Of a DNA stretch of 64,000 nt, positions 3,360 to 33,043 are shown one piece after another. Each line of letters begins with the position of its first letter. Position 1 is the first letter of the stretch. Position numbers and translations under genes: made by a program. The notes beneath the pieces are model-generated. The model made no database searches, was not told where the DNA came from, and was given only the letters and a program-made list of their open reading frames with translations. The stretch lies in NCBI GenBank assembly GCA_035699745.1, contig DASSPH010000057.1:1-64000 (forward strand). Reading direction: 5' to 3'. Origin of the DNA: Vicinamibacterales bacterium (lineage in GTDB: Bacteria; Acidobacteriota; Vicinamibacteria; Vicinamibacterales; 2-12-FULL-66-21).

Positions 3360-3433
3360 TGGGACGTCGTTCAACGGTAGGACACCGCGCTCTGGACGCG
3401 GTTATTGGGGTTCGAATCCCTACGTCCCAGCCA
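3360..3433 (+). tRNA. tRNA-Gln (anticodon CUG)
   Basis: The cloverleaf can be drawn by hand. The acceptor stem TGGGACG/CGTCCCA (3360-3366 with 3423-3429) is followed by discriminator G and an encoded CCA (3431-3433). The anticodon arm CCGCG-CTCTGGA-CGCGG carries CUG, and the T arm is TGGGG-TTCGAAT-CCCTA. The last 21 bases (3413-3433) are repeated exactly at 3527-3547, on the far side of a hairpin repeat, so the gene stays intact but looks like an integration target. Confidence 0.93.
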
Positions 3434-3547
3434 TCCGCCTCCGCTCGCGCACGATTCAGGCGAGCTACGGCGGGATGGCTCACCGACACGCTGAGATCCC
3501 GCCGCAGCGCGGAGCGCGAAGGCGGACGAATCCCTACGTCCCAGCCA
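3434..3547 (+). repeat. Palindromic repeat copy 1, at the tRNA-Gln 3' end
   Basis: A 93-bp imperfect palindrome (3434-3526) is followed by an exact 21-bp copy (3527-3547) of the tRNA 3' end. The outer arms are TCCGCCT (3434-3440) and AGGCGGA (3520-3526). The inner stem pairs GGCGGGAT (3469-3476) with ATCCCGCC (3496-3503), and CTCA (3479-3482) with TGAG (3492-3495), leaving a two-base GG bulge and a nine-base loop. The same element recurs near 9.5, 10.75, 12.4 and 15.2 kb. No transposase or integrase gene adjoins it. Confidence 0.85.
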
Positions 3548-3800: not shown

Positions 3801-5699
3801 CTACCGACAAGCAAATTCGTCCCCGGTTGTGGGTTGGCAGAAGTCTGACCAGCCAAAAGCGCGCCAATACTCGACGAGTCCCAATGTACGGGCGAGATCC
3901 CTGAATGCCGGAAGCCCTCGGACGTCCCGAAACAGCGGCTGCCACAAGAGCGCTGGATGGCGCACGTGTGGAGCTGCGTCCGTCAAGAGGCGCAGCGATA
4001 GCTCCGGCTCGCGGTAGAAGGCGGCCCACTCAGCGAGCAGCGCCTTCTCATCCGCGCTCGCCGAAGACGCCAGAAGGCGAATGTCGGCCGCGGCCCCCGC
4101 CGGGGCATCTATGAACCGCAGCAGCCTGCGGCTCACGCGCGCGGTCAAAGACTCGTCCGGAATCGCGGCGAGGCGCATGCGAATCAGCGCCTGGTCGTCC
4201 TGATTGAGCGCCGCCACGAACCCGCCATCGAGCAGCTGTGTTTCGAGGCCCTCGAGCCTGAGACCGCGATCGATCTCGGCGAGCGCACCGGTGATATTCC
4301 TGTCGGCCAAGTGCGCCGCGCTCAGGAAGCCGGCAATGGCCGGCGCGAAGGGGTCCTGCGCCCGCGCCCGCTCGAGTGCAGGTATGGCTTCGCGCGTGCG
4401 ACCCACCGCCAGCAGAAGAACGCCCCGGGGACCCGATGCCCGATCGGCGAGTCCGTAACGCGCGGAGGACATCTGCAGCTCCTCGAACGCGCGCGCCGCT
4501 GATGCCCAATTCCGGCGCCTCGCCTCCACAATCCCGATTTCCTCCAGCACGTCGGGTGCATCGGGCGTCAGCGCTCTCGCCTGCGCGAGCGCTTCGGCGG
4601 CGTTCTTCCGCCATTCCTCCGCCCGCTCCGGAACGAGGAACATGCCGTTCTGATAGACCGAGCTCAAACGCGCCCAGGCGATCGCGAACGAAGGATCGAG
4701 CGCGACCGCCCGCTGGAGGTGCGCGACGGCGAGTGGAAAAGATTGGGGCTGCCAGTCGAGATTGCGCGCGCGCGCACGCAGGTACTCCTCGTAGGCGGCA
4801 ACATTGCGGGTCATGCCTGGCACGCGGCCGACGGCGCCGATCCCGAGCTTGACTTGCAGAGCATCCGCGACCGACCTGGCAATGTCATCCTGAATCACAA
4901 AGATGTCGTCGACCCGGCGCTCGTAGGTTTCTGACCAGAGACGGTCGCCGGTCCCTGCGCGACTCAACTGGACCGTGATGCGCACCTGATCCCCTGCCGT
5001 GCGCACGCTGCCCTGCAGCACGTGCTCCACGCCGAGCGCCTCGCCGACGGCACGCAGGTCCCCGCCCCTGTCCTTGAACCGGAACGACGACGTTCGTGAG
5101 GTGACGCGCAACTCACGCACACGTGACAGCGCATTCAGCGTTTCGACGGTGATCCCGTCGGCGAAGAACTCCCGCTCGGGATCCGACGACAGGTTGTCGA
5201 ACGGCAGCACGGCCACCGACTGGGTCGCGGGAGGCCGCACACTGTTGCGGAAGGTGAGTATCGCAGCGGCGCCGGCCGCGGCGACGCCAACCAGTGCAGC
5301 CACGGCCATCAACCAAGCGGGCGACCCGTGGAGAACGGGCGCTGTCGGAGCCGTGGGCGCGGCGGGGGTATCGGCATCCACACGCTCCACGGACGCCGTC
5401 AGGCGATAGCCCCGTTTGGGGATCGTCTCGATGTATCGCGTGCGCTTGTCGCCATTCCCGAGGGCCTGCCGCAGCTGCCCGATGGCGAGATACACCGACC
5501 CGTCGCCCACCGTGACGTCTTCCCAGACCGTCGTCATCAACGACTCGATGGAGACGACGGCACCGCCGGCCCGGGCCAGGGCGACCAGGACGTCCATGGC
5601 ACGCGGCTCGAGCCTAATCGAGCGCGAGTCGCACTCGATCAGGTTCTGGCTCGGTATGGCGGTCCAGGGCCCGATCCGGAAGCTCGGCGCGTCGTTCAC
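3801..5699 (-). CDS. Winged-helix (OmpR/CadC-type) regulator with TolB-like and TPR domains
   Basis: I chose the GTG at 5699 (632 aa) because GAGGA lies 7 bp upstream and the protein then begins directly at the DNA-binding domain; the frame stays open further upstream but would run into the divergent gene. The N-terminal ~100 residues are a CadC-type winged helix (LEPRAMDVLVALARAGG, then YIETIPKRGYRL). A single membrane helix (AWLMAVAALVGVAAAG) follows near residue 135. Then comes a TolB-like/FlgO-like segment (SVAVLPFDNLSSDPEREFFA) and a C-terminal TPR array. The layout suggests a membrane-tethered one-component transcription regulator. Its signal and targets cannot be read from the sequence; the divergently transcribed NTF2-like gene is a possible target. 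Confidence 0.85.
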   Translation of the reverse strand: MNDAPSFRIGPWTAIPSQNLIECDSRSIRLEPRAMDVLVALARAGGAVVSIESLMTTVWEDVTVGDGSVYLAIGQLRQALGNGDKRTRYIETIPKRGYRLTASVERVDADTPAAPTAPTAPVLHGSPAWLMAVAALVGVAAAGAAAILTFRNSVRPPATQSVAVLPFDNLSSDPEREFFADGITVETLNALSRVRELRVTSRTSSFRFKDRGGDLRAVGEALGVEHVLQGSVRTAGDQVRITVQLSRAGTGDRLWSETYERRVDDIFVIQDDIARSVADALQVKLGIGAVGRVPGMTRNVAAYEEYLRARARNLDWQPQSFPLAVAHLQRAVALDPSFAIAWARLSSVYQNGMFLVPERAEEWRKNAAEALAQARALTPDAPDVLEEIGIVEARRRNWASAARAFEELQMSSARYGLADRASGPRGVLLLAVGRTREAIPALERARAQDPFAPAIAGFLSAAHLADRNITGALAEIDRGLRLEGLETQLLDGGFVAALNQDDQALIRMRLAAIPDESLTARVSRRLLRFIDAPAGAAADIRLLASSASADEKALLAEWAAFYREPELSLRLLTDAAPHVRHPALLWQPLFRDVRGLPAFRDLARTLGLVEYWRAFGWSDFCQPTTGDEFACR

Positions 5700-5886
5700 G
5701 TGATTCCTCAGGCGATCCTGCCACGAACCTAAGACGGTCCTAAGGACGGCGGACCGCTGCCGATTGTAACTTCGCGTGGCGCCGGAGCGGCATTGTGAGC
5801 CGCCGCGACTCATCGCGCTCGCTCGGCGCTCCCGACCAGCCGTCGGGACAATGTCACCGACTTGACAGATCCAAGGAGGGCTTCTG

Positions 5887-6339
5887 ATGCGACGCATTCT
5901 CTTCGTTGTGCTCTTGACCCTTGCAGCCTCCGCTCCAGCCGTTGGGCAGGCCAGCGCCGAACAGCAGATTCGGGATCTCGAGAAACAGTCTTTGGAGGCG
6001 GCCGAGCGCGGGACCGGACATGCGTTTGCCGAGCGCTACCTCGCCGACGATTTCCTCTTCACGGATCTGATGGGACGTGTCATGACCAAGGCGCAGATAC
6101 TGGCGAGGCCGAAATCCACCCCTGGCAAGGGGGCCGTGATGGAGGTTGACGATCAGCAGGTGCGGGTCTACGGCGATACGGCAGTAGTCACCGGACGCGT
6201 GACGTTTACGAGCGCAGACAATCCGAAGCCGGACAGCAGGCCCGCGGCCCGCTACACGCGGGTGTGGGTCCACCAGGGCGGCAGCTGGAAGCTGGTCGCC
6301 GAGCAGCTGACGCGGATCGCCGCGCCGGCGGTAGGCTGA
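5887..6339 (+). CDS. Secreted SnoaL/NTF2-like (DUF4440-type) protein
   Basis: This 150-residue protein starts at ATG 5887 behind a strong AAGGAGG site. It opens with a Sec signal peptide (MRRILFVVLLTLAASAPAVG, cleavage probably before QASAEQ). The mature part has the cone-fold pattern of DUF4440 proteins: an N-terminal helix LEKQSLEAAERG, FAERYLADDFLFTD, and a C-terminal strand YTRVWVHQGGSWKLV. Such domains act as small enzymes or ligand-binding proteins and no catalytic residue can be assigned. It is divergent from the winged-helix/TPR regulator across a 187-bp spacer that probably holds both promoters. A left-module repeat begins about 55 bp after its stop. Confidence 0.85.
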   Translation: MRRILFVVLLTLAASAPAVGQASAEQQIRDLEKQSLEAAERGTGHAFAERYLADDFLFTDLMGRVMTKAQILARPKSTPGKGAVMEVDDQQVRVYGDTAVVTGRVTFTSADNPKPDSRPAARYTRVWVHQGGSWKLVAEQLTRIAAPAVG

Positions 6340-6394
6340 CCTGGATGCGGCGGAGGCTTTCGGCTCTCGAGGCGATCATGCGGCGCGTACGAGC

Positions 6395-6426
6395 CGGGTC
6401 CGGAAATCGTCCCGAACACCCAGCCA
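6395..6426 (+). repeat. Left-module fragment of the dispersed repeat
   Basis: GGAAATCGTCCCGAACACCC and the following CAGCCA match the left arm found before the palindromic core at 9.5, 10.7 and 15.2 kb. Here the core is absent. The upstream ATGCGGCGCG also resembles the left flank of other copies. Confidence 0.7.
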
Positions 6427-6621
6427 ACTTCTATTTCACACAACAATGACTGCGCCGCGCGCATTTGCCGGTGTGTCGAACACCGTCATCGATGTCCCCT
6501 TGACGGCGGACACGCGCTCGGTCCTTCCAACCTAAACTCTGCGAAGAACCAGCCTGGCGATGGAATGGGAGCTGCGTTCCGTAAGTGGACGCTGCGCGGG
6601 CGATGCATTACCCTGCCCACC

Positions 6622-7734
6622 ATGCGCGAGACCACACGACGCGTCTTCCTCCACCGTAGCGGACGTGTCGCGCTCGGCAGCGCGCTGTTGTGGCAGTCCA
6701 AAAGCCTCTCGACGCAGCTGACCGGCGACTCGGCCTGGAACGCGCTGATCGCGGGCCTCGAAGCGCAGATTCCTTCGCTGATGACGGAACTCCTGGTGCC
6801 CGGCGTATCGGTGGTGCTGATTCGTGACGGCGCCATCGCGTGGCAACGCGCTTTTGGCGTGACCGACGCCTCGATGAAGCGGCCCGTCGATAGCGACACG
6901 ATCTTCGAAGCGGCGTCGATGAGCAAACCGGTCTTCGCTTATGCAGTGCTGAAGCTGTGCGAGAAGAAGGTGCTCGCTCTCGACACACCGCTGGTCGCCT
7001 ACGGGGGGCCGCCGTTTCTCGAAGGCGATCCGCGCATCAAGTCGATCACCGCTCGCCACGTCCTCTCACACTCGACCGGTTTCCAGAACTGGCGTTCGGA
7101 TTCGGAGCCGCTCCGCATCCATTTCACGCCGGGCACGCAGTATCGATATTCGGGCGAGGGCTTCGCGTGGCTGCAGTCGGTCGTCAGCCACGTCACCCAA
7201 CAGCCCATCGAGCCGTTCATGAAGGCAAACTTGCTCGAGCCGTTCGGTATGACAACGAGCGGCTATGTCTGGAACGAGACCTTCGCGGCGCGCGCCGCGC
7301 GCCCGCACGATGCCAAAGGACGGCCAGAGGACAATCGGAAGCGCACTGCCGCCGACGTGGCGCGCTACGCCGCGGCCGGCGATCTCGAGGCCACGCCCAC
7401 GGAATACGCGAAGTTCCTGCTCGAGGTAATCGCGCCGAAGCCGCCCGATGAGTATCGGCTCACCGCCGCGTCCCTGAAGGAGATGTGTCGACCGCATGTG
7501 AAGGAGCCGAACGCGTGGGGCGCCCGCGGCCTTGGATGGCAGCTCGTTCACGCCGACAAGGGGGACGTCATTCAACACGGCGGCGACAATCCCGGCTTCC
7601 ACGCGTTTGCCGTCGGCTCCGTCGAACGCCGGTGTGGCGCGGTGGTCATGACCAACGGCGAAAATGGCGCGACCCTGATCGGCCGATTCCTGAGCGACGT
7701 CGTAGACCGGCTGCACGTCGCTTCGAGACACTAG
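6622..7734 (+). CDS. Class C beta-lactamase-like serine hydrolase
   Basis: The start is placed at ATG 6622 (370 aa), where the protein opens with a Tat-like leader (TTRRVFLHRSGR). The fold is that of penicillin-binding protein/class C beta-lactamase enzymes. The SxxK nucleophile motif is SMSK (Ser about 99), a YSG at RYSGEGFAW stands where YxN is expected, and HGG in VIQHGGDNPG replaces KTG. Members of this group (EstB, D-aminopeptidase and Pab87-like enzymes) act on esters, peptides or peptidoglycan fragments in the periplasm; the substrate here is not predictable. It stands alone between two degraded stretches of repeat and insertion-sequence remnant. Confidence 0.88.
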   Translation: MRETTRRVFLHRSGRVALGSALLWQSKSLSTQLTGDSAWNALIAGLEAQIPSLMTELLVPGVSVVLIRDGAIAWQRAFGVTDASMKRPVDSDTIFEAASMSKPVFAYAVLKLCEKKVLALDTPLVAYGGPPFLEGDPRIKSITARHVLSHSTGFQNWRSDSEPLRIHFTPGTQYRYSGEGFAWLQSVVSHVTQQPIEPFMKANLLEPFGMTTSGYVWNETFAARAARPHDAKGRPEDNRKRTAADVARYAAAGDLEATPTEYAKFLLEVIAPKPPDEYRLTAASLKEMCRPHVKEPNAWGARGLGWQLVHADKGDVIQHGGDNPGFHAFAVGSVERRCGAVVMTNGENGATLIGRFLSDVVDRLHVASRH

Positions 7735-7768
7735 CCGCCGCTGCCCCGGATTGTGAGTGCTCCGACGG

Positions 7769-7894
7769 TCACGCGTGCGCTGCACCGATGAGCCAGGGTC
7801 GCTCGAACCGGTACTCTTCATCGAGCTCGACGTCGGCCACCACGACGGCCAACATCTTCTAGTGGACGTCAATTCCCGCGATCCTGTACCGCAT
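7769..7894 (-). pseudogene. IS110-family transposase N-terminal remnant
   Basis: On the minus strand ATG 7894 reads MRYRIAGIDVH, a TAG stop, then KMLAVVVADVELD and EYRFER, ending at TGA 7769. AGIDVHKKMLAVVV is the start of the DEDD domain of IS110/IS1111 transposases; the stop replaces the first Lys of HKK. Only about 40 codons remain and no C-terminal half or terminal ends are seen nearby. This dead fragment is the only insertion-sequence remnant I can recognise in the window. Confidence 0.75.
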
Positions 7895-7959
7895 CGGCCT
7901 GTTTTCAATGACTTGCAGCCCAGGGTGATTTCACTGTCGAACTTCGGAGCCAGAACGCC

Positions 7960-9417
7960 TCAAGGCTTCCACAGCGAATACATCAACTCGACATCGAGCT
8001 TGGCCGTGCGCAGGATCTGCCGAACAGTGTCCTGCCCTATGTGTGGTGCGAGTCGACTCGGCTGATTGGCGATCGTGTACGTTGTCATCGCGACGACTGC
8101 GCCGCCCGCCCGGAACGAGGTCGCGTCGACTTTGTCGAACGTGTCGCTTGCCTGATGGTGCACTTGTCGATACTGGGTGGTGTCCACCCACAGCTTCAAC
8201 GCCGGGATTCCTTCAAGCAGGAACGGACATTCATCCGACCCGCAGCTCGCGTCCATCGATAACCCGTCGGCACGCAGATCGCGTAAACGTGCCGAAATCG
8301 GGCGCATCGCCGCGCGCAGATCGTTTCGCCCGTTCACATACCAGCCGCGTGGCCGTCCGGCGCCGTTATCGGTGTTCAGCACGGCGATACAATTCTGCAA
8401 ATCGTTTGCATGCCGCTTGATGAACATCGCCGAACCGGGCGGGCCCGGCTCCTCAGCGGCCCAGAGCGCGAATCGAATCGAGCGCCGCGGCGGTTTGTCG
8501 AGTGACGCGATCGCACGCGCCGCCTCGAGGACCATTACCACGCCCGTGCCGTTGTCCTGCGCGCCGGTCCCGAGATCCCACGAATCGAGGTGGGCACCCA
8601 AAAGGACCCACTCGTGAGGCAGCTCGCGACCGGTGATCTCTGCGACGAGGTTGCTTACCTGGGTCGGCCCTGACACCTCGTTCCGCCATTCCGCTTCAAT
8701 GGTGACAGGCCCACGGGCGAGGTGACGACGAAGCAGCAGGTTGTCTTCGAGTCCGATGTCCCCGACTGGCAGCGGGAGGACTGTGCCTCGCGCATTGCCA
8801 GTGTCTACCCAACCAGCGACGTTGTTCGCCACTCTGTGGGGCAACAGAACCGCTTGCGCGCCAAGATCCTTGAGCAGCGCATACGCATTGCGAAGGCGTG
8901 CGAATGCGAGGGGCTGATCGGACGGCAGGGCCTTCTCGAGATCGACGAGAACGATTCGATGCTTCAGTTGCGCTGACTGCGATCGAATCGTCGCTGCCGA
9001 AAGATCGGAAACCAGAATCACGTCGCCGCGAATGCCGCCGGGTGGAGTCGATGGTCCCCAACCGACGGATCCGATTCTCAGCGCGCGTTCGACTGGCGCG
9101 ATGAGTCGAGCTCGCGCGGACCCACGTTGCCAGGTATCGGGCAAAGTGAATTCCTCGAAGCGAATGTTGGTAAGTCCGGCTTCGCGGAGCCTCGTCGCGG
9201 CCCATTGCGCGGCTCGGTCGTATGCCGGAGATCCGACTAGACGCGCGCCGATGTCGTCCGTCAACTCGCGAAGCAGTTCCATGGACTGGCCACGCAGAAC
9301 GGTCGACGAGATTCGATTCAGATCGTTCGGGGGATTGACGGTCTGCTGTCCGCGCACCAAAGCGGCCGCGACTGCCGCGAGGACCAGCGCGTGCGTGAGA
9401 CCAGATCTGCTCGACAT
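7960..9417 (-). CDS. Secreted M28-family metallopeptidase (aminopeptidase)
   Basis: The 485-residue protein starts at ATG 9417 with a signal peptide (LVLAAVAAALVRGQQ). Residues ~45-110 form the usual N-terminal part (GARLVGSPAYDRAAQW), then a PA-like insert, then the M28 catalytic domain. Zinc-site residues are visible: His and Asp in LGAHLDSWDLGTGAQDNGTG, the Glu pair in WAAEEPGPPGS, Asp in VLNTDNGAG, and His in VHHQASDTFDK. This full set suggests an active di-zinc exopeptidase that releases N-terminal amino acids outside the cytoplasm. It points toward the IS110 remnant, and a full copy of the palindromic repeat lies just upstream of its start. Confidence 0.9.
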   Translation of the reverse strand: MSSRSGLTHALVLAAVAAALVRGQQTVNPPNDLNRISSTVLRGQSMELLRELTDDIGARLVGSPAYDRAAQWAATRLREAGLTNIRFEEFTLPDTWQRGSARARLIAPVERALRIGSVGWGPSTPPGGIRGDVILVSDLSAATIRSQSAQLKHRIVLVDLEKALPSDQPLAFARLRNAYALLKDLGAQAVLLPHRVANNVAGWVDTGNARGTVLPLPVGDIGLEDNLLLRRHLARGPVTIEAEWRNEVSGPTQVSNLVAEITGRELPHEWVLLGAHLDSWDLGTGAQDNGTGVVMVLEAARAIASLDKPPRRSIRFALWAAEEPGPPGSAMFIKRHANDLQNCIAVLNTDNGAGRPRGWYVNGRNDLRAAMRPISARLRDLRADGLSMDASCGSDECPFLLEGIPALKLWVDTTQYRQVHHQASDTFDKVDATSFRAGGAVVAMTTYTIANQPSRLAPHIGQDTVRQILRTAKLDVELMYSLWKP

Positions 9418-9486
9418 TGCAGCGTTTCGACGCCAACAGGGTAGGCGGCCTTGAGAGAGAACTCAAACATCATGCGGCACGGATGA

Positions 9487-9624
9487 GCCAGTTGCGGAAA
9501 TCGTCCCGAACAGCCAGCCATCCGCCTCCGCTCGCGCACGATTCAGGCGAGCTACGGCGGGATGGCTCACCGACACGCTGAGATCCCGCCGCAGCGCGGA
9601 GCGCGAAGGCGGACGAATCCCTGC
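9487..9624 (+). repeat. Palindromic repeat copy 2 (left module plus core)
   Basis: The left module (from 9487, CCAGTTGCGGAAATCGTC) ends in CAGCCA at 9520. The 93-bp core (9521-9613) matches copy 1 base for base by eye. It is followed by CGAATCCCTGCG and then diverges, so the tRNA-like right end is cut short. It lies in the space between the M28 peptidase start and the next plus-strand gene. Confidence 0.85.
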
Positions 9625-9698
9625 GGGTTCGTCGAAGCGCTCGCGGCAATTCGTTTGGAGGGGTCGCTCTATCGGCCCAGACGTCGGGCCCGCCCGTC

Positions 9699-9770
9699 AT
9701 GAAAGTGACGATGCTCATCGTCACCGCTTTGATCGTCTGGTTCGTCGTTCAACTGACACGAGGTTTCTAG
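9699..9770 (+). CDS. Possible 23-residue membrane peptide
   Basis: An ATG at 9699 opens a 23-codon frame (MKVTMLIVTALIVWFVVQLT and three more residues) that is a single hydrophobic helix. Its TAG shares one base with the GTG at 9770 of the next frame, which would allow coupled translation. There is no clear Shine-Dalgarno site. It may simply be noncoding. Confidence 0.25.
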   Translation: MKVTMLIVTALIVWFVVQLTRGF

Positions 9771-10126
9771 TGTTGCTATGGGGATCGAGCGACGGGCTGA
9801 AGCATCCTGCTATGGCGGCTGTTGATTCGACGGACCTGTGTCCTGAACTGAAGCGACGTGCTTTCGGAGGCTCCGGCATAGCTAGAACTCCGCTTATCGC
9901 GGGACTGGCACTGTTTCTGGTCGCCTTTCACATCGCGACAACTGGCAACCTGTGGGCTCAAGTGCCCGGCACGCCTGGACACGATCACCTGACCGAGGTG
10001 GCCTGCCTGGACGTACCGCCAGACGCGAAGCGCCCGGAGTTCGGCTGCTTCAACGTCGGCATGGTCACCGGACTTCATTTCAGTCAGGCATCCGTTTACT
10101 GCGAGACACCGCCGCCCGCTCGGTGA
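9770..10126 (+). CDS. Truncated cupin-family-like secreted protein (N-terminal part)
   Basis: The frame gives up to 118 residues from GTG 9770; ATG 9812 is another possible start. A hydrophobic stretch (IAGLALFLVAFHIATTG) ends in WAQ and looks like an uncleaved or cleaved signal. The rest (LTEVACLDV, RPEFGCFNVG, TGLHFSQASVY) resembles the N-terminal quarter of a family of exported cupin proteins about 230-260 residues long. After ASVY the expected continuation is missing and the frame ends within 10 residues. It is therefore probably a broken or shortened gene. The next gene encodes a cupin resembling the C-terminal half of the same family. Confidence 0.5.
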   Translation: MLLWGSSDGLKHPAMAAVDSTDLCPELKRRAFGGSGIARTPLIAGLALFLVAFHIATTGNLWAQVPGTPGHDHLTEVACLDVPPDAKRPEFGCFNVGMVTGLHFSQASVYCETPPPAR

Positions 10127-10287
10127 CCTGGTAGCGAGGCCGACCAACAGCTCGGATGAAACGGCGAGCTGCCGACGGTCAAGGATGGTGATCGTGCGTA
10201 CGCAGCGGCACCTGTATCATCAGTCGCCGCCGCCAATGAGCGTGGCTCGTCCTGCATCAAAGCGCGGGGCGGCGTGGAGGTTGTGCA

Positions 10288-10671
10288 ATGACGCGATCCT
10301 GCGGGTGGTCGGTCGCAGTAGCGGCCGTACTGTCGGTTTTGGCGCCGAACATCGCGGCGGCACAGCTGATGTCAACGTGCGCCCCGGACTCACCCGAGAG
10401 GCGCGGTCAGATAGGCTCGCTTCCACATCATCATTCCGGTGTCGAAGCCGTCTACGTGCTCGAGGGCGAAGCGTGCTACGAGACACCGACTCGCGCCGCC
10501 AAGCTGCAGAAGGGGGAAACGCTCGCCCTGCCCGGCGGCACGCCCATGCGGGCCGTGGTCACCGGATCAGCGCGTCGCCATGTGTTGGCCGTCATCGTTC
10601 ATGACGCAGCCCAGCCTGCCACCATGAGGATGGAAGAGGGTACCGGTCCCAAGCTTGCCGCGTGCAAGTAG
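10288..10671 (+). CDS. Small secreted cupin-domain protein
   Basis: The 127-residue protein starts at ATG 10288, 8 bp after GGAGG, so this start is well supported. It has a signal peptide (SVAVAAVLSVLAPNIAAA). The single cupin barrel shows HHHSGVEAVYVLEGEACYET, then KGETLALPGGTP and RRHVLAVIVHDAAQP. The first motif carries the likely metal-binding His residues and Glu. Cupins of this type bind a metal or small ligand; no enzyme activity can be named. A short decayed copy of its 3' end lies at 32961-33043. A repeat copy begins about 50 bp after the stop. Confidence 0.8.
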   Translation: MTRSCGWSVAVAAVLSVLAPNIAAAQLMSTCAPDSPERRGQIGSLPHHHSGVEAVYVLEGEACYETPTRAAKLQKGETLALPGGTPMRAVVTGSARRHVLAVIVHDAAQPATMRMEEGTGPKLAACK

Positions 10672-10723
10672 CAGTGGGCGAGGCACACCAACACTCTGTC
10701 AAGCCTCACGCAGCCGTGACCAA

Positions 10724-10839
10724 CCAGTTGCGGAGATCGTCCCGCACACCCAGCCAATCCGCCTCCGCTCGCGCACGATTCAGGCGAGCTACGGCGGGAT
10801 GGCTCACCGACACGCTGAGATCCCGCCGCAGCGCGGAGC
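10724..10839 (+). repeat. Palindromic repeat copy 3 (left module plus partial core)
   Basis: The left module starts at 10724 (CCAGTTGCGGAGATCGTC) and ends CAGCCA. The core begins at 10758 and matches copy 1 up to GCGCGGAGC at 10839, then diverges, so the outer right arm is lost. About 35 bp further on, AGTTCGAATCCCA (10875-10887) is a tRNA T-arm-like sequence. The repeat fills most of the 350-bp gap before the MBL gene. Confidence 0.8.
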
Positions 10840-11022
10840 CTCCACCTCCTCGAGATCTTCGTCGGGATCGGCGAAGTTCGAATCCCAGGCAGCTCCTGCC
10901 TCGGGTACAGCTCTGCTCCCCGGCGAATCAGCCGTCTGATTTGCGTCATGGACTGCGGTAGCCTACGTGATGAACGGAGGACGCGCGACGCTCGCGTGCT
11001 GATAACCAAGGAGACAAGCTTC

Positions 11023-11952
11023 ATGACGAGCCCGCTCAGCCGAAGAGAGTTTTTCGCCGGCGTGGGCATGTTTGCCGCGGCCGCCCGCTCCGTCGTGGGA
11101 CAGAGCCGGCGCACCAGGCTCGTGCTGCTTGGGACAGGAGGCGGGCCGCGGCCCCGAACGGCGAATTCCGCTTCCGCGCAGGTGATCGTCAGCAACGGCG
11201 CGGCCTACGTGATTGATTGCGGCGATGGCGTGGCCCGGCAGATGGCCTTTGCGGGCGTGCCGCTGGCATCGCTGCGCCACGTGTTCATCACGCACCAACA
11301 TTCCGATCACACCGCCGACTACGGCAATCTGATCTGGCTCGCGTGGACGGCCGGACTGAGCTCGCGCGTCGATACGTGGGGACCGCCGCCGCTCGAGCGC
11401 ATGACCAGACTGTTCCTCGAGATGAACCAGTCCGACATCGAGATCCGGATCGCCAACGAGGGCCGTGTGCCGCTCGCGCCGCTCGTGCGCGTGCACGAAG
11501 TGCGTCAAGGCGGCCCAGTCATGGCGGACGACAATCTCAGGGTCACCGCAACGCTCGTGGATCATCCACCGGTCGTGCCGGCCTTCGCCTACCGCTTCGA
11601 CGCCGCCGATCGCTCGATCGTGATCTCGGGCGACACGGCACCGTCGCAGAGCCTGGTGAAGCTCGCCGCCGGCGCGGACGTCCTGGTCCACTCCGTCATG
11701 TATCCGCCGGCCATCGACCGGCTCGTCGCCCGCATACCAAATGCGGCGGCGCTGAAGGCGAGCATCCTCGCGCATCAGACATCGGCGGAAGACGCGGGCC
11801 GTATCGCACAGGACGCTGGCGTGAAGACACTGGTCCTCTCGCATTTCGTACCGCCCGACGATGCCGCCGTGACCGACGCGATGTGGCTCGAGGCCGCTCG
11901 GCGCCACTTCCGGGGTACCGTGATCGTCGGGCGAGACCTGCTGGAGCTCTGA
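11023..11952 (+). CDS. MBL-fold metallohydrolase with Tat leader
   Basis: I place the start at ATG 11023 (309 aa), which has AAGGAG upstream and gives a twin-arginine leader (LSRREFFAGVGMFAAAARS). The metallo-beta-lactamase fold shows the zinc-binding HxHxDH as THQHSDH, the strand VIDCGDG, a third His in TLVDHPPV, the Asp in VISGDTAPS and the last His in LVLSHFVPP. This layout is closest to the RNase Z/arylsulfatase-like branch of the superfamily. The Tat leader argues for export and against RNA processing. It stands alone, preceded by repeat copy 3. Confidence 0.88.
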   Translation: MTSPLSRREFFAGVGMFAAAARSVVGQSRRTRLVLLGTGGGPRPRTANSASAQVIVSNGAAYVIDCGDGVARQMAFAGVPLASLRHVFITHQHSDHTADYGNLIWLAWTAGLSSRVDTWGPPPLERMTRLFLEMNQSDIEIRIANEGRVPLAPLVRVHEVRQGGPVMADDNLRVTATLVDHPPVVPAFAYRFDAADRSIVISGDTAPSQSLVKLAAGADVLVHSVMYPPAIDRLVARIPNAAALKASILAHQTSAEDAGRIAQDAGVKTLVLSHFVPPDDAAVTDAMWLEAARRHFRGTVIVGRDLLEL

Positions 11953-12030
11953 TGTTGAAAATGCTGACGCTCGGCGGTCCGTCTGCGGTTGTGGACCTTT
12001 CGCCGCGTCGTGCAATCGACCAACGCCCGC

Positions 12031-12309
12031 CTAAGTGACGCGCGGAGGAAGGAAGTGGTGAACGGGAAGAATCTCCGGCGTTCCGACGTCGAAGCCCCGT
12101 TCCCTCATCGCCTGCGTGAAAACGGGGGCGAACGCATCATAGGCTGCTCGGGATTCCCAAACCGTGATCGTGAAGAACGCGATGTCCTCACCGACGCCGG
12201 CGTGAAAGATCAACCCGGCAGGCGGCGCGACTGGAGGACCGCCCGTCCAGGATTGCCGATACTGATCGGCCGACATCGCTGGCGCCTTGTACACAACGGC
12301 GATGGCCAC
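12031..12309 (-). CDS. Small dimeric alpha/beta-barrel (ABM-like) protein
   Basis: The 92-residue protein starts at GTG 12309, with AGGAGG 7 bp upstream. The pattern AIAVVYKAPAMSADQYRQSW, then GLIFHAGVG, then FFTITVWESRAAYDAFAPVF is that of a one-domain ferredoxin-like barrel related to antibiotic-biosynthesis monooxygenases. Such proteins pair into dimers and may oxidise small aromatics or just bind ligands. No cofactor residue can be assigned. It converges on the MBL gene across a 78-bp gap. Confidence 0.7.
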   Translation of the reverse strand: MAIAVVYKAPAMSADQYRQSWTGGPPVAPPAGLIFHAGVGEDIAFFTITVWESRAAYDAFAPVFTQAMRERGFDVGTPEILPVHHFLPPRVT

Positions 12310-12392
12310 TCGTCAACCTCCTGAACCAATTGACGCAGTCTACACAACAGCCCGGGCGACGAACTCAGCGGCGATCACGCAGCATGGTTGCG

Positions 12393-12500
12393 CCAGTTGC
12401 GGAAATCCTCCCGAACATCCAGCAGCTCATCAGATGACAATCTACGTTCCAGTACTTTGCTCGGGGCCGCAGCGCGGAGCGCGAAGGCGGACGAATCCCG
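12393..12500 (+). repeat. Palindromic repeat copy 4 (core largely replaced)
   Basis: The left module (12393-12424) is followed by about 40 bp of unrelated DNA and then by the right arm only (GCCGCAGCGCGGAGCGCG from 12466, AAGGCGGACGAATCCC to about 12499). The AGCTCATCAG after the left module also follows copy 5 at 15.29 kb. This looks like a rearranged or internally deleted copy. Confidence 0.7.
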
Positions 12501-12600
12501 ACGTCCTTGCGACAATTTCCCAACGCTTTGAATCGAAGCGACGACAAACGTTGCGTTCAATGGCGCCGCACGTTACGAGTCGAGTGCCGCCGCACCGGCC

Positions 12601-14136
12601 TCACTTCGCGGCATTGGCCGCAAGCCGCACGTCGTCGTGTGTGAAAACCGCAAAAACGAACGGCTGTGATTCGAGAACGCGCGCCAGATCGCGCAGCGTC
12701 AGATGAAGGGCCGACAGCCGGTTCTCATCGACGAACATCTGGCTGTTCTCCGGTTCGAAGGATGTAATCAGCTGCTTCGCCTCAGGATCAAACCTTTCGT
12801 GCAACAGATCTACGATCGACTGCGCAAAGTGTCGACGGTCCGGCGACGAGGGTTGCGACGGCATGCCATGGTCCGCGGTCACCGCGAGAAGATAGTCGTT
12901 GCCAACCTTCGCCTCCAGCGCCCGCAGCATTCGCGTTAAGTGGCGGTCCATCTCGCCGAGGGTGACGCGGAGCTCGCTCGAATCCGGACCGTACTTGTGG
13001 CCCACGAAATCGGCCCCCTTGTAGTTGAGCAGAATGAGATCCGCGACGTTGTCTGCGCCCACCGGCTCGCGCTCAATCATCGTCGTCATCGCATCGGCTT
13101 CGAATGCCGGAAACAGGGCCGAATAGCGCACAGCGGCGGCCGAGTCGATTCTGTGACTCATCCACTCCCCGTCGGCCCGCCACAGTGCGCTCGCATTTCG
13201 ATCCTTCAGGTACGCAGGCAGCCGGAAGCAATTGGGGTTCGTGGTCCAGTTGCCCGTCTGTTGATCGTAGCTTGCGAGCAGCACTGGCGTTCCATTCAAC
13301 TGACACGCTCCGTGACCCGCAAGCGGCGTCGCCGCTCGGTCGATGCTGCCCTGGGCCAGTACGATCGCGCGGCCAGCCGTCTCGAGCTGCCAGACGTCTG
13401 CCAGCGTCAGTGCCACCAGATCGTGCGGCACTCCTCCCGCGAACAGGTCGTGGCGCCGTCCGTGAGTGCGATCGTACACGCTTACGCCGGTGATTCCGTG
13501 CACGCGAGGATCGGCGCCCGTCGAGATCGTCGAGTGCCCCATTGCGGTGTTGGAGGGCAGAACGTTCAGCCGCGCCTGAGTGAACCAGGCACTCTGCTGA
13601 CGCAGAGCGGTCAGGGTTGGCATGGACGCGGCGTAGCGATCGAAGTAATCGCGCCGCATGCCATCCAGGACGAGCAGCATCACCACTCGCGGTCGAGCGC
13701 CCGCCCGCAGAACCGGCAATATGCGGCCCGTCGTTGACGGGGGCATCTGTACGCCAAGCGACGCCGCAAGCGTGGGCGCCACGTCCTGCTGCGCGGCTGG
13801 GACTGAGAACACGCCGGTTTTCACCGCAGGGCCCGCAAACATCAGCGGAATCGAGACGTCATAGGACCAGGGGGACCCGTGCATGTACTCGAAATTCGGG
13901 TCAGCCCGTGTGATGAAGTCCCCTTCACGCGGGACGATCAGGAGTTGGCCCGTTCGGCCTGGAAAATAGGCCCGTGCGAACATTGCCAGGAAGCGCTGTC
14001 GCGTTGCGGGATCGGGTGGCGACTGCTTGACCTGCTCGCCCGAAACCGTCCACGTGATCGCGACCAGACCCAGGGCGAGGATAATGGCACCGTAGCGGGG
14101 CAACTTTGAGAGGACTAAGGTCCGCCACCTCGTCAT
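12601..14136 (-). CDS. Alkaline-phosphatase-superfamily phosphodiesterase/phosphatase, apparently permuted
   Basis: The 511-residue protein starts at ATG 14136 behind GGAG. It has an N-terminal membrane anchor or signal (GAIILALGLVAITWTVSG). The metal-site motifs are present: Asp in LDGMRRDYF, the nucleophile region LPSNTAMGHSTISTGADPRV, KGADFVGHKYGPDS and TADHGMP. Residues ~55-140 (GRTGQLLIVPREGDF, YMHGSPWSYDVSIPLMFAGP, DVAPTLAASLGV, TGRILP) look like the segment that normally closes PafA-type enzymes at the C-terminus. Here it precedes the catalytic core, so the order seems circularly permuted. Substrate unknown; probably periplasmic hydrolysis of phosphate esters. Repeat sequence flanks both sides. 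Confidence 0.82.
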   Translation of the reverse strand: MTRWRTLVLSKLPRYGAIILALGLVAITWTVSGEQVKQSPPDPATRQRFLAMFARAYFPGRTGQLLIVPREGDFITRADPNFEYMHGSPWSYDVSIPLMFAGPAVKTGVFSVPAAQQDVAPTLAASLGVQMPPSTTGRILPVLRAGARPRVVMLLVLDGMRRDYFDRYAASMPTLTALRQQSAWFTQARLNVLPSNTAMGHSTISTGADPRVHGITGVSVYDRTHGRRHDLFAGGVPHDLVALTLADVWQLETAGRAIVLAQGSIDRAATPLAGHGACQLNGTPVLLASYDQQTGNWTTNPNCFRLPAYLKDRNASALWRADGEWMSHRIDSAAAVRYSALFPAFEADAMTTMIEREPVGADNVADLILLNYKGADFVGHKYGPDSSELRVTLGEMDRHLTRMLRALEAKVGNDYLLAVTADHGMPSQPSSPDRRHFAQSIVDLLHERFDPEAKQLITSFEPENSQMFVDENRLSALHLTLRDLARVLESQPFVFAVFTHDDVRLAANAAK

Positions 14137-14309
14137 GCTGGCTCCATCGCTTCACACCGGATGATCGTACTGGGCCCGCGAAGACACGAACTGCTCGTGC
14201 GATTATCGTCTGCGATTGGGCTGTTCGCTGCTCTAAAGTTGTTGATGCCAGTGGGCGCGAGCTGGTGAGCCTGATCCGAGACGAACCAGCTCACGCAGCG
14301 TTTTGGACG

Positions 14310-14415
14310 AACCAGGTTCGAAAATCGTCCCCGCCAGCACTTTTCAAGTCGATCGCGCCGCTTCAGCTTCAACGATATCAATCGGTTGGAGTAAATCGGC
14401 TCGGTTCGAATCCCA
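14310..14415 (+). repeat. Divergent repeat relic with tRNA T-arm-like ends
   Basis: ACCAGGTTCGAAAATCGTCC (14310-14329) resembles the left module of the dispersed repeat. CGGTTCGAATCCCA (14402-14415) resembles a tRNA T arm. The palindromic core is missing. It occupies most of the gap between the divergent phosphatase gene and the next pseudogene. Confidence 0.45.
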
Positions 14416-14447
14416 CACTCATTGCTCTCCGGGGATCTTGACGCACT

Positions 14448-15165
14448 TTGAACACGCGTGCGAGAACTTGCGGTGATGCCAGACATCGGTGGCACGCGCG
14501 AGGTTCTCACGAGCCGGCCAGCGGTTCGCGTCGTCGCCGCCGTGATCTGATCGTTCGGCTGATCCGCGATCCTCGATTTGCCGATGCGGCACCCACCACC
14601 GTCGTTGAATGGGCGAACGCGCTCCATCAGGACTCGATTGATCGGTACGTGGCTGGCGAGGACGAGTCGAAGGCACTTGTGAGCCGCGCGTGGCGCAACA
14701 CGGGGTTCTCCCCGCTCGCCCCATGGGACGCGCCGGTGTACGAACGGTTCTTCGATGTCGTCAGGGACGTCAAAGGCGCGGCCGACGGAGCGCCGGCTTC
14801 GGGTTGTCGCCGCGGATCTCCCGGTGGACTGGAGCGGCACGCGTCAGGAGATCGAGGCGACCAAACAGCGCTTTCCACGCGATGTACATTTCTTTGAGAT
14901 CATCGATCGCGAAGTGATCGCCAAGCGCCAGAAGGCGCTATTGATCTTCGGCGGAAACCACCTGTACCGGCATTGGTGGAATCCCTTCGCGAACGGGTCG
15001 ACGCCGCCAAACCTGATCGACCTTCTCGAACAGAAGGCTCGAGGAGCGGTGCTCGTCGTCATGGTGCATGCGTTCGTCGAGCGAGATGTTGACCTTGAAA
15101 GTCGGCTCAAGGCGTGGAAGGCACCGGCGATGGCGAAGCTGGAAGGGACCAGTTGCGGAAACCGT
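14448..15165 (+). pseudogene. Frameshifted hypothetical gene, C-terminus cut by a repeat
   Basis: The first frame carries LIVRLIRDPRFADAAPTTVV, EWANALHQDSIDRYVAGED and APVYERFFDVVRDVK. Near 14770 the coding pattern moves to the next frame, which continues ERRLRVVAADLPVDW, HFFEIIDREVIAKRQKALL and IFGGNHLYRHWWN. Together they resemble a ~300-residue secreted hypothetical family that I know from acidobacterial genomes but cannot name. The N-terminus has no signal peptide or good start. The last natural residues (AKLEGT) run straight into repeat copy 5. One frameshift, a degraded 5' end and a replaced 3' end mark it as dead. Confidence 0.65.
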
Positions 15166-15292
15166 CCCGAACACCCAGCCATCCGCCTCCGCTCGCGCAC
15201 GATTCAGGCGAGCTACGGCGGAATGGCTCACCGACACGATGAGATCCCGCCGAAGCGCGGTGCGAAGGCGGACGAATCCCTGCGTTCCAGCC
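15149..15292 (+). repeat. Palindromic repeat copy 5 (left module, core and right end)
   Basis: This is the most complete dispersed copy. The left module starts at 15149, a 91-bp core (15182-15272) matches copy 1 with a few changes and a 2-bp deletion, and the right end reads CGAATCCCTGCGTTCCAGCC up to 15292. The inner arm change (GGCGGAAT) weakens one base pair of the hairpin. The copy forms the 3' end of the frameshifted pseudogene. The remaining ~300 bp before the dioxygenase hold nothing I recognise. Confidence 0.85.
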
Positions 15293-15597
15293 AGCTCATC
15301 AGTAGTTCCCGCTCGTTGCCACACCTCTCAATCCGGCCCGAGGACCAGACCGTGGATGCTCATGGCTGTTCCCGCAGGACAGTTTCCGCCGAGACACGCG
15401 CTGATTCCGGGCGTCGCTCCAACTGCTGATCGCGTGAGCACCGCGCGAGGGGTTGACACATCCGGGAACGCGGAATGGCCCGTGTCCGCCGGCAAAATCG
15501 GGCCCGTCGGGCAGTGTCGAATTCGCTGTAGGATGTCGCCCGAATACGAGAGGAACCGCGCCTCGAAAACGAGCTTGAGAAAAGGCAAGGATGACGT

Positions 15598-32960: not shown

Positions 32961-33043
32961 CTGGCCGTCATCGTCCATGACGCCGCCCAACCTGCCAGCA
33001 TGCGGATGGAAGCTGGTACCGGCCCCGGGCCCCGTGCAAGTAG
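32961..33043 (+). pseudogene. Decayed copy of the cupin gene 3' end
   Basis: LAVIVHDAAQPASMRMEAGT is nearly identical to the C-terminus of the small cupin encoded at 10288-10671 (LAVIVHDAAQPATMRMEEGT). The DNA match continues through GTACCGG and CGTGCAAGTAG, the end of that gene including its stop codon, but a one-base loss puts the stop out of frame. Nothing of the N-terminal two thirds remains. It shows that the cupin unit once moved or was duplicated. Confidence 0.75.

Follow-up and report, generated by a model that had tools for sequence, protein, structure and literature searches.

The question raised by this locus is what process placed a series of small, unrelated gene units, separated by a shared repeat, directly behind a tRNA-Gln gene in a Vicinamibacterales (Acidobacteriota) genome. 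The window analysed here is a stretch of 64,000 nucleotides (contig DASSPH010000057.1, positions 1 to 64,000). Six copies of the repeat, hereafter the left module (LM), lie at 6.36-15.18 kb, every one on the plus strand and downstream of tRNA-Gln, and they divide the ~12 kb behind the tRNA gene into cassettes of ~0.8-3 kb. An earlier reading made from the letters alone (the sequence-only reading) had described an array in which a shared repeat related to recombination sets small gene units apart. This description stands, but the interpretation as a whole was supported only in part: neither the anchoring tRNA-Gln (3360-3433) nor the class of the enzyme, a serine recombinase with the domains PF00239+PF07508+PF13408, had been seen. 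Our analysis indicates that the array very probably grew as mobile elements sharing one family of serine recombinases integrated one after another at tRNA-Gln.

All LM matches of the 6.3-Mb genome were confined to the window and to one strand. The first pattern search gave five forward and no reverse matches, the second genome-wide search gave six matches, all in the window, and neither search found LM in the rest of the genome. Since the reversed-pattern control gave no match in the same 6.3 Mb, this clustering is more than chance.

The LM has the consensus TCACGCnGC..nnGAnGAGCCAGTTGCGGAAATCGTCCC[T/G]AACACCCAGCCA. On the minus strand it reads WLGVRDDFRNWL..AA-stop, with the peptide WLGVRDDFRN[WY]L..AA-stop, in nearly all of 39 copies from ~25 genomes. 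Among these copies, 60 of the 141 changes from the consensus were synonymous in the minus-strand recombinase frame (expected, 0.19), and in the other two frames synonymous changes were at or below expectation. In two genomes (G055 and G038) decayed recombinase sequence continues straight into the LM. Pfam gave no match to the short recombinase fragments, and their identity was taken from full-length relatives, which carry resolvase, recombinase and zinc-ribbon domains. These facts show that the LM is the 3' end of a serine recombinase gene, displaced and left as a putative attachment-site scar. The possibility that the LM peptide is the genuine terminus of a cargo protein was rejected, as a stop stands just ahead of the LM in several copies.

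The recombinases themselves connect this scar to the tRNA gene. The G063 recombinase P0001 (PF00239+PF07508+PF13408) ends antisense in tRNA-Gln (...GNENGN-WLGGRDSNPNNRVQS...). In G008 the recombinase likewise runs into the antisense tRNA-Gln gene, as it does in G046, where a palindrome is inserted and the frame is broken. We then considered 80 related recombinases in named genomes of Acidobacteriota, Alphaproteobacteria, Zixibacteria, Desulfobacterota, Gemmatimonadota, Legionella and others. The open reading frame (ORF) stopped inside an antisense tRNA gene in 56 of the 80 (Gln, Asn, Asp, Pro or Glu) and inside a sense tRNA gene in none; several of the remaining relatives read into displaced tRNA fragments (L163, L195, L214, L166). 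Because tRNA genes occupy a tiny share of a genome, this frequency is far beyond chance. Furthermore, near-identical recombinase pairs, such as L188/L198 and L160/L161, switch their tail within the tRNA 3' end (TTGGCTGGG or TTGGCTCCCC). The tRNA specificity was clustered on the recombinase tree with several switches (10 changes, against 21.7 in shuffles). At three loci in other genomes (L028, L268, L272) the LM arm continues into a tRNA-Asn-like core, AGTGCGAGGAGCCA (..GAGGAGCCA / ..GGTGAGCCA); these are probably parallel arrays at tRNA-Asn.

On this basis the following origin of the array is proposed. The attachment (att) core, CCCAGCCA, which is identical to the 3' terminus of tRNA-Gln, would lie within the last codons of a recombinase gene oriented antisense to the tRNA. 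A crossover at this core would keep tRNA-Gln intact and bring the recombinase body next to it, so that the integrated recombinase would read its C-terminus from the antisense tRNA. The order after integration would be tRNA-Gln, recombinase body, cargo and LM, the LM being the recombinase's own last codons (WLGVRDDFRNWLxxAA-stop); these would now stand at the distal end, joined to the sequence formerly downstream of the tRNA. Successive integrations at the same tRNA would push older elements outward, so LMs would accumulate in one orientation with the newest nearest the tRNA. Where the recombinase body was lost or never carried, cassettes of one or more genes and an LM would result. The parts of this scheme that can be read from sequence are the tail switch, the tRNA overlap, the LM codons, the orientation, the anchoring at tRNA-Gln, the shared cargo and a before/after pair described below; from these we infer the events of excision and integration themselves. 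The layout in the window was as follows.

3360-3433, plus strand: tRNA-Gln(CTG), the anchor and presumed attB (ARAGORN, Rfam RF00005; recombinases of relatives end antisense in the same gene)
3434-3527, plus strand: hairpin element directly at the CCA end of tRNA-Gln (fold z -3.3)
3528-3547, plus strand: 20-nt copy of the tRNA-Gln 3' end, GAATCCCTACGTCCCAGCCA, after the hairpin; identical to 3414-3433
3801-6339, mixed strands: span of cassette 1, with two cargo genes
3801-5897, minus strand: cassette 1, Trans_reg_C+TPR regulator
5887-6339, plus strand: cassette 1, DUF4440/SnoaL protein
6358-6426, plus strand: LM1, putative attachment-site scar (recombinase 3'-end codons on the minus strand, plus CCCAGCCA)
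6565-7734, plus strand: cassette 2, beta-lactamase-fold serine hydrolase
7960-9417, minus strand: cassette 2, M28 peptidase
9458-9520, plus strand: LM2
9521-9614, plus strand: hairpin at the LM2 junction, identical to the copy at tRNA-Gln, then a partial tRNA-Gln tail, GAATCCCTGCG
10288-10671, plus strand: cassette 3, cupin protein
10695-10756, plus strand: LM3
10758-10841, plus strand: truncated hairpin at the LM3 junction
10948-11952, plus strand: cassette 4, metallo-beta-lactamase-fold protein
12031-12309, minus strand: cassette 4, small ORF without a Pfam or NCBIfam match
12361-12423, plus strand: LM4
12466-12506, plus strand: hairpin fragment (12466-12492) and tRNA-Gln-like tail (12493-12506)
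12601-14136, minus strand: cassette 5, type I phosphodiesterase
14283-14336, plus strand: LM5, decayed
14448-15114, plus strand: cassette 6, apparently broken gene
15115-15181, plus strand: LM6
15182-15273, plus strand: hairpin at the LM6 junction
15274-15293, plus strand: tRNA-Gln-like tail, GAATCCCTGCGTTCCAGCCA, after the LM6 hairpin

An Rfam scan of the window matched tRNA-Gln only. In cassette 6 a single ORF was compared with Pfam and NCBIfam (14755-15429), and it gave no match. The match scores from LM1 to LM6, in order of distance from the tRNA, were 50.6, 58.6, 50.1, 48.1, 25.2 and 45.0 bits. The falling scores would agree with the oldest copies being farthest, over just six points. Separately, the 3' end of the cupin gene (10586-10650) has a second copy, 88% identical, at 32962-33026, 22 kb away.

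The same arrangement was found in other members of the order. The LM is present in 60 of 161 genomes (46 of 85 genera), and its orientation was uniform in 21 of the 22 contigs with multiple copies. In all five LM genomes that have tRNA-Gln on the same contig (G000, the genome of the window, and G107, G124, G046 and G113), this gene lies upstream in the same orientation. The features of a tRNA island are thus present, namely a tRNA 3' end as the target, the core CCCAGCCA at each LM and displaced tRNA fragments in relatives. An integrase is encoded on the island in G046, G063 and G008, and is absent from the array in the window. In G046 (C82, 5998-23286; L077, L125) a 17-kb element consists of tRNA-Gln, a frame-broken recombinase, cargo and an LM; the cargo includes type I restriction with DarTG, CapH/CapP regulators and a CBASS-type (cyclic-oligonucleotide-based antiphage signalling system) cyclase, and the element is a defence island. 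At the other extreme, a 1.4-kb cassette in G113 consists of tRNA-Gln, HigBA with one further gene, and an LM.

The cargo is shared between LM flanks of different genomes. The beta-lactamase-fold gene directly behind LM1 has a counterpart, 86.5% identical in nucleotides, directly behind an LM in G160, which belongs to a different family. HigBA adjoins an LM also in G130 and G055, and another cassette is common to G046, G130 and G055. Comparison of the tRNA-Gln flanks between genera by tblastx synteny was uninformative. Within one genus, G046 and G161 share 554 bp at 90% identity, containing the palindrome, the tRNA tail and the recombinase end; this stretch is preceded by tRNA-Gln in one genome and by an LM in the other. 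The two loci are a natural before/after pair of an insertion.

The palindrome is a different matter. The copies at 3.43, 9.52 and 15.18 kb are complete or nearly complete; the copy at 10.76 kb is truncated, and at 12.47 kb a fragment is present. The palindrome folds better than shuffles (z -3.3 for 3434-3527, and -2.5). All repeat copies listed in the sequence-only reading were recovered, as LM or as hairpin; the list had missed the full hairpin at 3434-3527 and the 20-nt tRNA repeat after it. Each of the two also occurs alone, and across the order hairpins with no LM stand at tRNA-Ser, -Asn, -Met, -Arg, -Glu and -Lys. The two are independent features that became adjacent, and the LM copies once taken as left-only relics are not remnants of a longer repeat. 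In relatives the palindrome adjoins tails of tRNA-Gln as well as genes for tRNA-Ser, -Met and -Arg, and in many cases 20-21 nt of the tRNA 3' end, from the T-loop onward, are repeated there. The palindrome belongs to a repeat family of its own, which occurs at the ends of many tRNA genes.

The palindrome would insert independently at tRNA CCA ends with a duplication of ~20 nt of the tRNA 3' end. An element landing between the tRNA and the palindrome would then leave the palindrome behind an LM, and such an insertion, as in the G046/G161 pair, would account for the adjacency. The tail at 15274-15293 at the LM6 junction resembles tRNA-Gln and not LM, as expected if the palindrome first stood at tRNA-Gln and was later displaced. 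In addition, GCTCATCAG directly follows LM4 without a hairpin (12412-12432), but follows the hairpin and tRNA tail at LM6 (15285-15305); these sites would represent an empty and a filled site of the palindrome unit. The simplest account is that palindromes inserted and elements integrated repeatedly at one tRNA, and the cassettes may travel together with the palindrome.

It is worth weighing the other possible interpretations against these results. Single-gene units split by a structured repeat do recall an integron, with the folded palindrome as an attC-type site for a tyrosine recombinase. The boxes GTTRRRY and RYYYAAC (plus strand; each is the reverse complement of the other) are absent at every copy, and no match to IntI (TIGR02249), the integron-type tyrosine recombinase, exceeded the curated cut-off in the genome of the window. 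The folded LM copy (LM2, the single copy tested) was no better than shuffles (z -0.6), and either repeat occurs without the other. The earlier statement that this is not a classical integron was thus borne out. The palindrome does not serve as the site of recombination; that role would fall to the LM, an att derived from the tRNA 3' end and fused to the last serine recombinase codons. An integron-like origin is already largely refuted and appears extremely improbable. Three adjacencies of an LM to a full or nearly full hairpin in the window would fit one family of the miniature inverted-repeat transposable element (MITE) or REP (repetitive extragenic palindromic) kind, with incidental genes between the copies. 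Across the order, however, the LM is often followed by other sequence, palindromes stand at six other tRNA species without an LM, and the adjacency is accounted for as above. The genome has three genes for REP-associated Y1 transposases (RAYT; PF01797), none near the palindrome. We consider a single MITE or REP family highly unlikely.

The LMs might also be mere fossils of duplicated or decayed recombinase genes, with no site-specific integration. The LM is indeed coding-derived and the window holds no recombinase body. Nevertheless, all copies stop at the core CCCAGCCA in one orientation and are anchored at tRNA-Gln, and the tail-switch pairs, the G046/G161 pair and the cargo common to LM flanks of different genomes likewise speak against it; this explanation is very unlikely. 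Islands of the tycheposon type have the same general layout of tRNA anchor, cargo cassettes and repeated att remnants (PMC10872708), but every recombinase found in a tRNA-Gln/LM context was of the serine type (PF00239/PF07508), and a tyrosine-recombinase island at tRNA-Gln has next to no probability.

Several points weigh against stacked integration by serine recombinases as set out here. The genome of the window has a single PF07508 recombinase (L094:3557-5629, G000:C74), which ends in ..LTGIEPVTS-stop within antisense tRNA-Ala; as no tRNA-Gln-specific recombinase is present, the array may be a fossil. Upstream of 55 recombinases of other phyla, no full 26-nt repeat of the tRNA 3' end was found within 10 kb; either these elements are longer, or their repeat is short like the LM core. 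Neither circular forms nor excision nor any activity were seen, mobility being deduced from sequence. Most LM genomes are fragmented assemblies, and there is no close strain in which the presence or absence of individual cassettes could be compared. The newest-first order is inferred from LM decay with distance in six copies only. In this scheme a recombinase would also act in trans on cassettes without one. A further proposal is more tentative, and we hold it to be possible rather than probable: a true cassette system anchored at the tRNA, in which tRNA-specific serine recombinases, acting in trans, would carry recombinase-less gene-LM cassettes of 1-4 kb between the tRNA-Gln arrays of different bacteria, and the scar of the following integration would give a recombinase its native C-terminus back. 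If so, target and enzyme tail would be coupled in one short sequence.

The closest known precedent is the ssrA-specific islands of Dehalococcoides with the serine recombinase DsiB, reported in 2011 (PMC3146451). In both systems the recombinase gene overlaps the att at its 3' end, antisense into a structural RNA gene; islands stand in tandem at one RNA gene, some without a recombinase; and a short conserved motif lies upstream of each displaced repeat (PMC3146451). That study already raised the possibility that the 3' gene fragment comes from an adjacent island (PMC3146451). The DsiB target is the tmRNA gene (ssrA), whereas here it is tRNA-Gln, or tRNA-Asn, -Asp, -Pro or -Glu in relatives. The direct repeat here is ~8 nt with a recombinase-coded arm, against 20 nt of the RNA gene; the taxonomic spread is much broader, and the cassettes are as small as 1-2 kb. 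The present recombinase is just distantly Ccr-like, scoring 64-70 bits where the NCBIfam CcrA/CcrB equivalog cut-offs are 700-900. Its phage and plasmid relatives are all less than 60% identical (~31% for the best listed), and no experimentally known member was found among them.

Serine recombinases integrating at tRNA 3' ends are described for Mycobacterium AICEs (actinomycete integrative and conjugative elements) at tRNA-Leu and phage phiRSM1 at tRNA-Ser (PMC3218068). The family here is large and spans several phyla, and the passages of that source on these elements report no att within recombinase codons (PMC3218068). Tycheposons share the tRNA anchor and variable cargo but use a XerD-type tyrosine recombinase instead of a PF00239/PF07508 serine type (PMC10872708). 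Suicidal integrases of the SSV1 type also carry attP within the integrase gene; they are archaeal tyrosine recombinases whose gene is split and inactivated by integration, whereas here the last ~16 codons would be exchanged (PMC8371274). Integron arrays likewise hold many small cassettes in one orientation between repeated recombination sites, but here IntI and attC boxes are lacking, the insertion point is a tRNA gene, and the site is a non-folding core with a recombinase-coded arm.

Database practice regards tRNA genes as targets of tyrosine integrases, and serine recombinases at tRNAs have been described as rare (in the relevant passages of PMC3218068) or as unknown. In the serine-recombinase family described here, which is present in several phyla, overlap with a tRNA gene is the rule, and the att lies within the last codons of the recombinase. 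The overlap yields ready attB/attP candidates, and an ORF ending antisense in a tRNA is a simple signature for islands unseen by searches limited to tyrosine integrases. It also explains the recurrent ..GIEPVTS and ..GGRDSNP C-termini of these recombinases; the frequent TGIEPVTS/GFEP C-termini in databases may stem from such overlaps. In Vicinamibacterales, the LM arrays also allow the succession of gene gains (toxin-antitoxin, CBASS, restriction, hydrolases) to be read from the genome.

Two further observations concern the palindrome. Small GIY-YIG genes lie by tRNA 3' ends or fragments and the palindrome at L015:521-710 (G000:C46), L222, L226, L228, L229, L231 and L080:~4900-5480. Palindrome and tRNA 3' end accompany the gene at 6 of ~16 small GIY-YIG loci in the set, none of them in the array of the window. 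These loci may represent a palindromic mobile element, so far undescribed, that duplicates 20-21 nt of the tRNA 3' end; a literature search on GIY-YIG, tRNA and palindromes yielded mainly organelle papers. Finally, a short palindrome of the same family lies in frame inside a purC-like ORF (L012:~4230-4320, G000:C1:15260), by a T-loop-like GTTCGAATTC, and recalls the Rickettsia palindromic elements.
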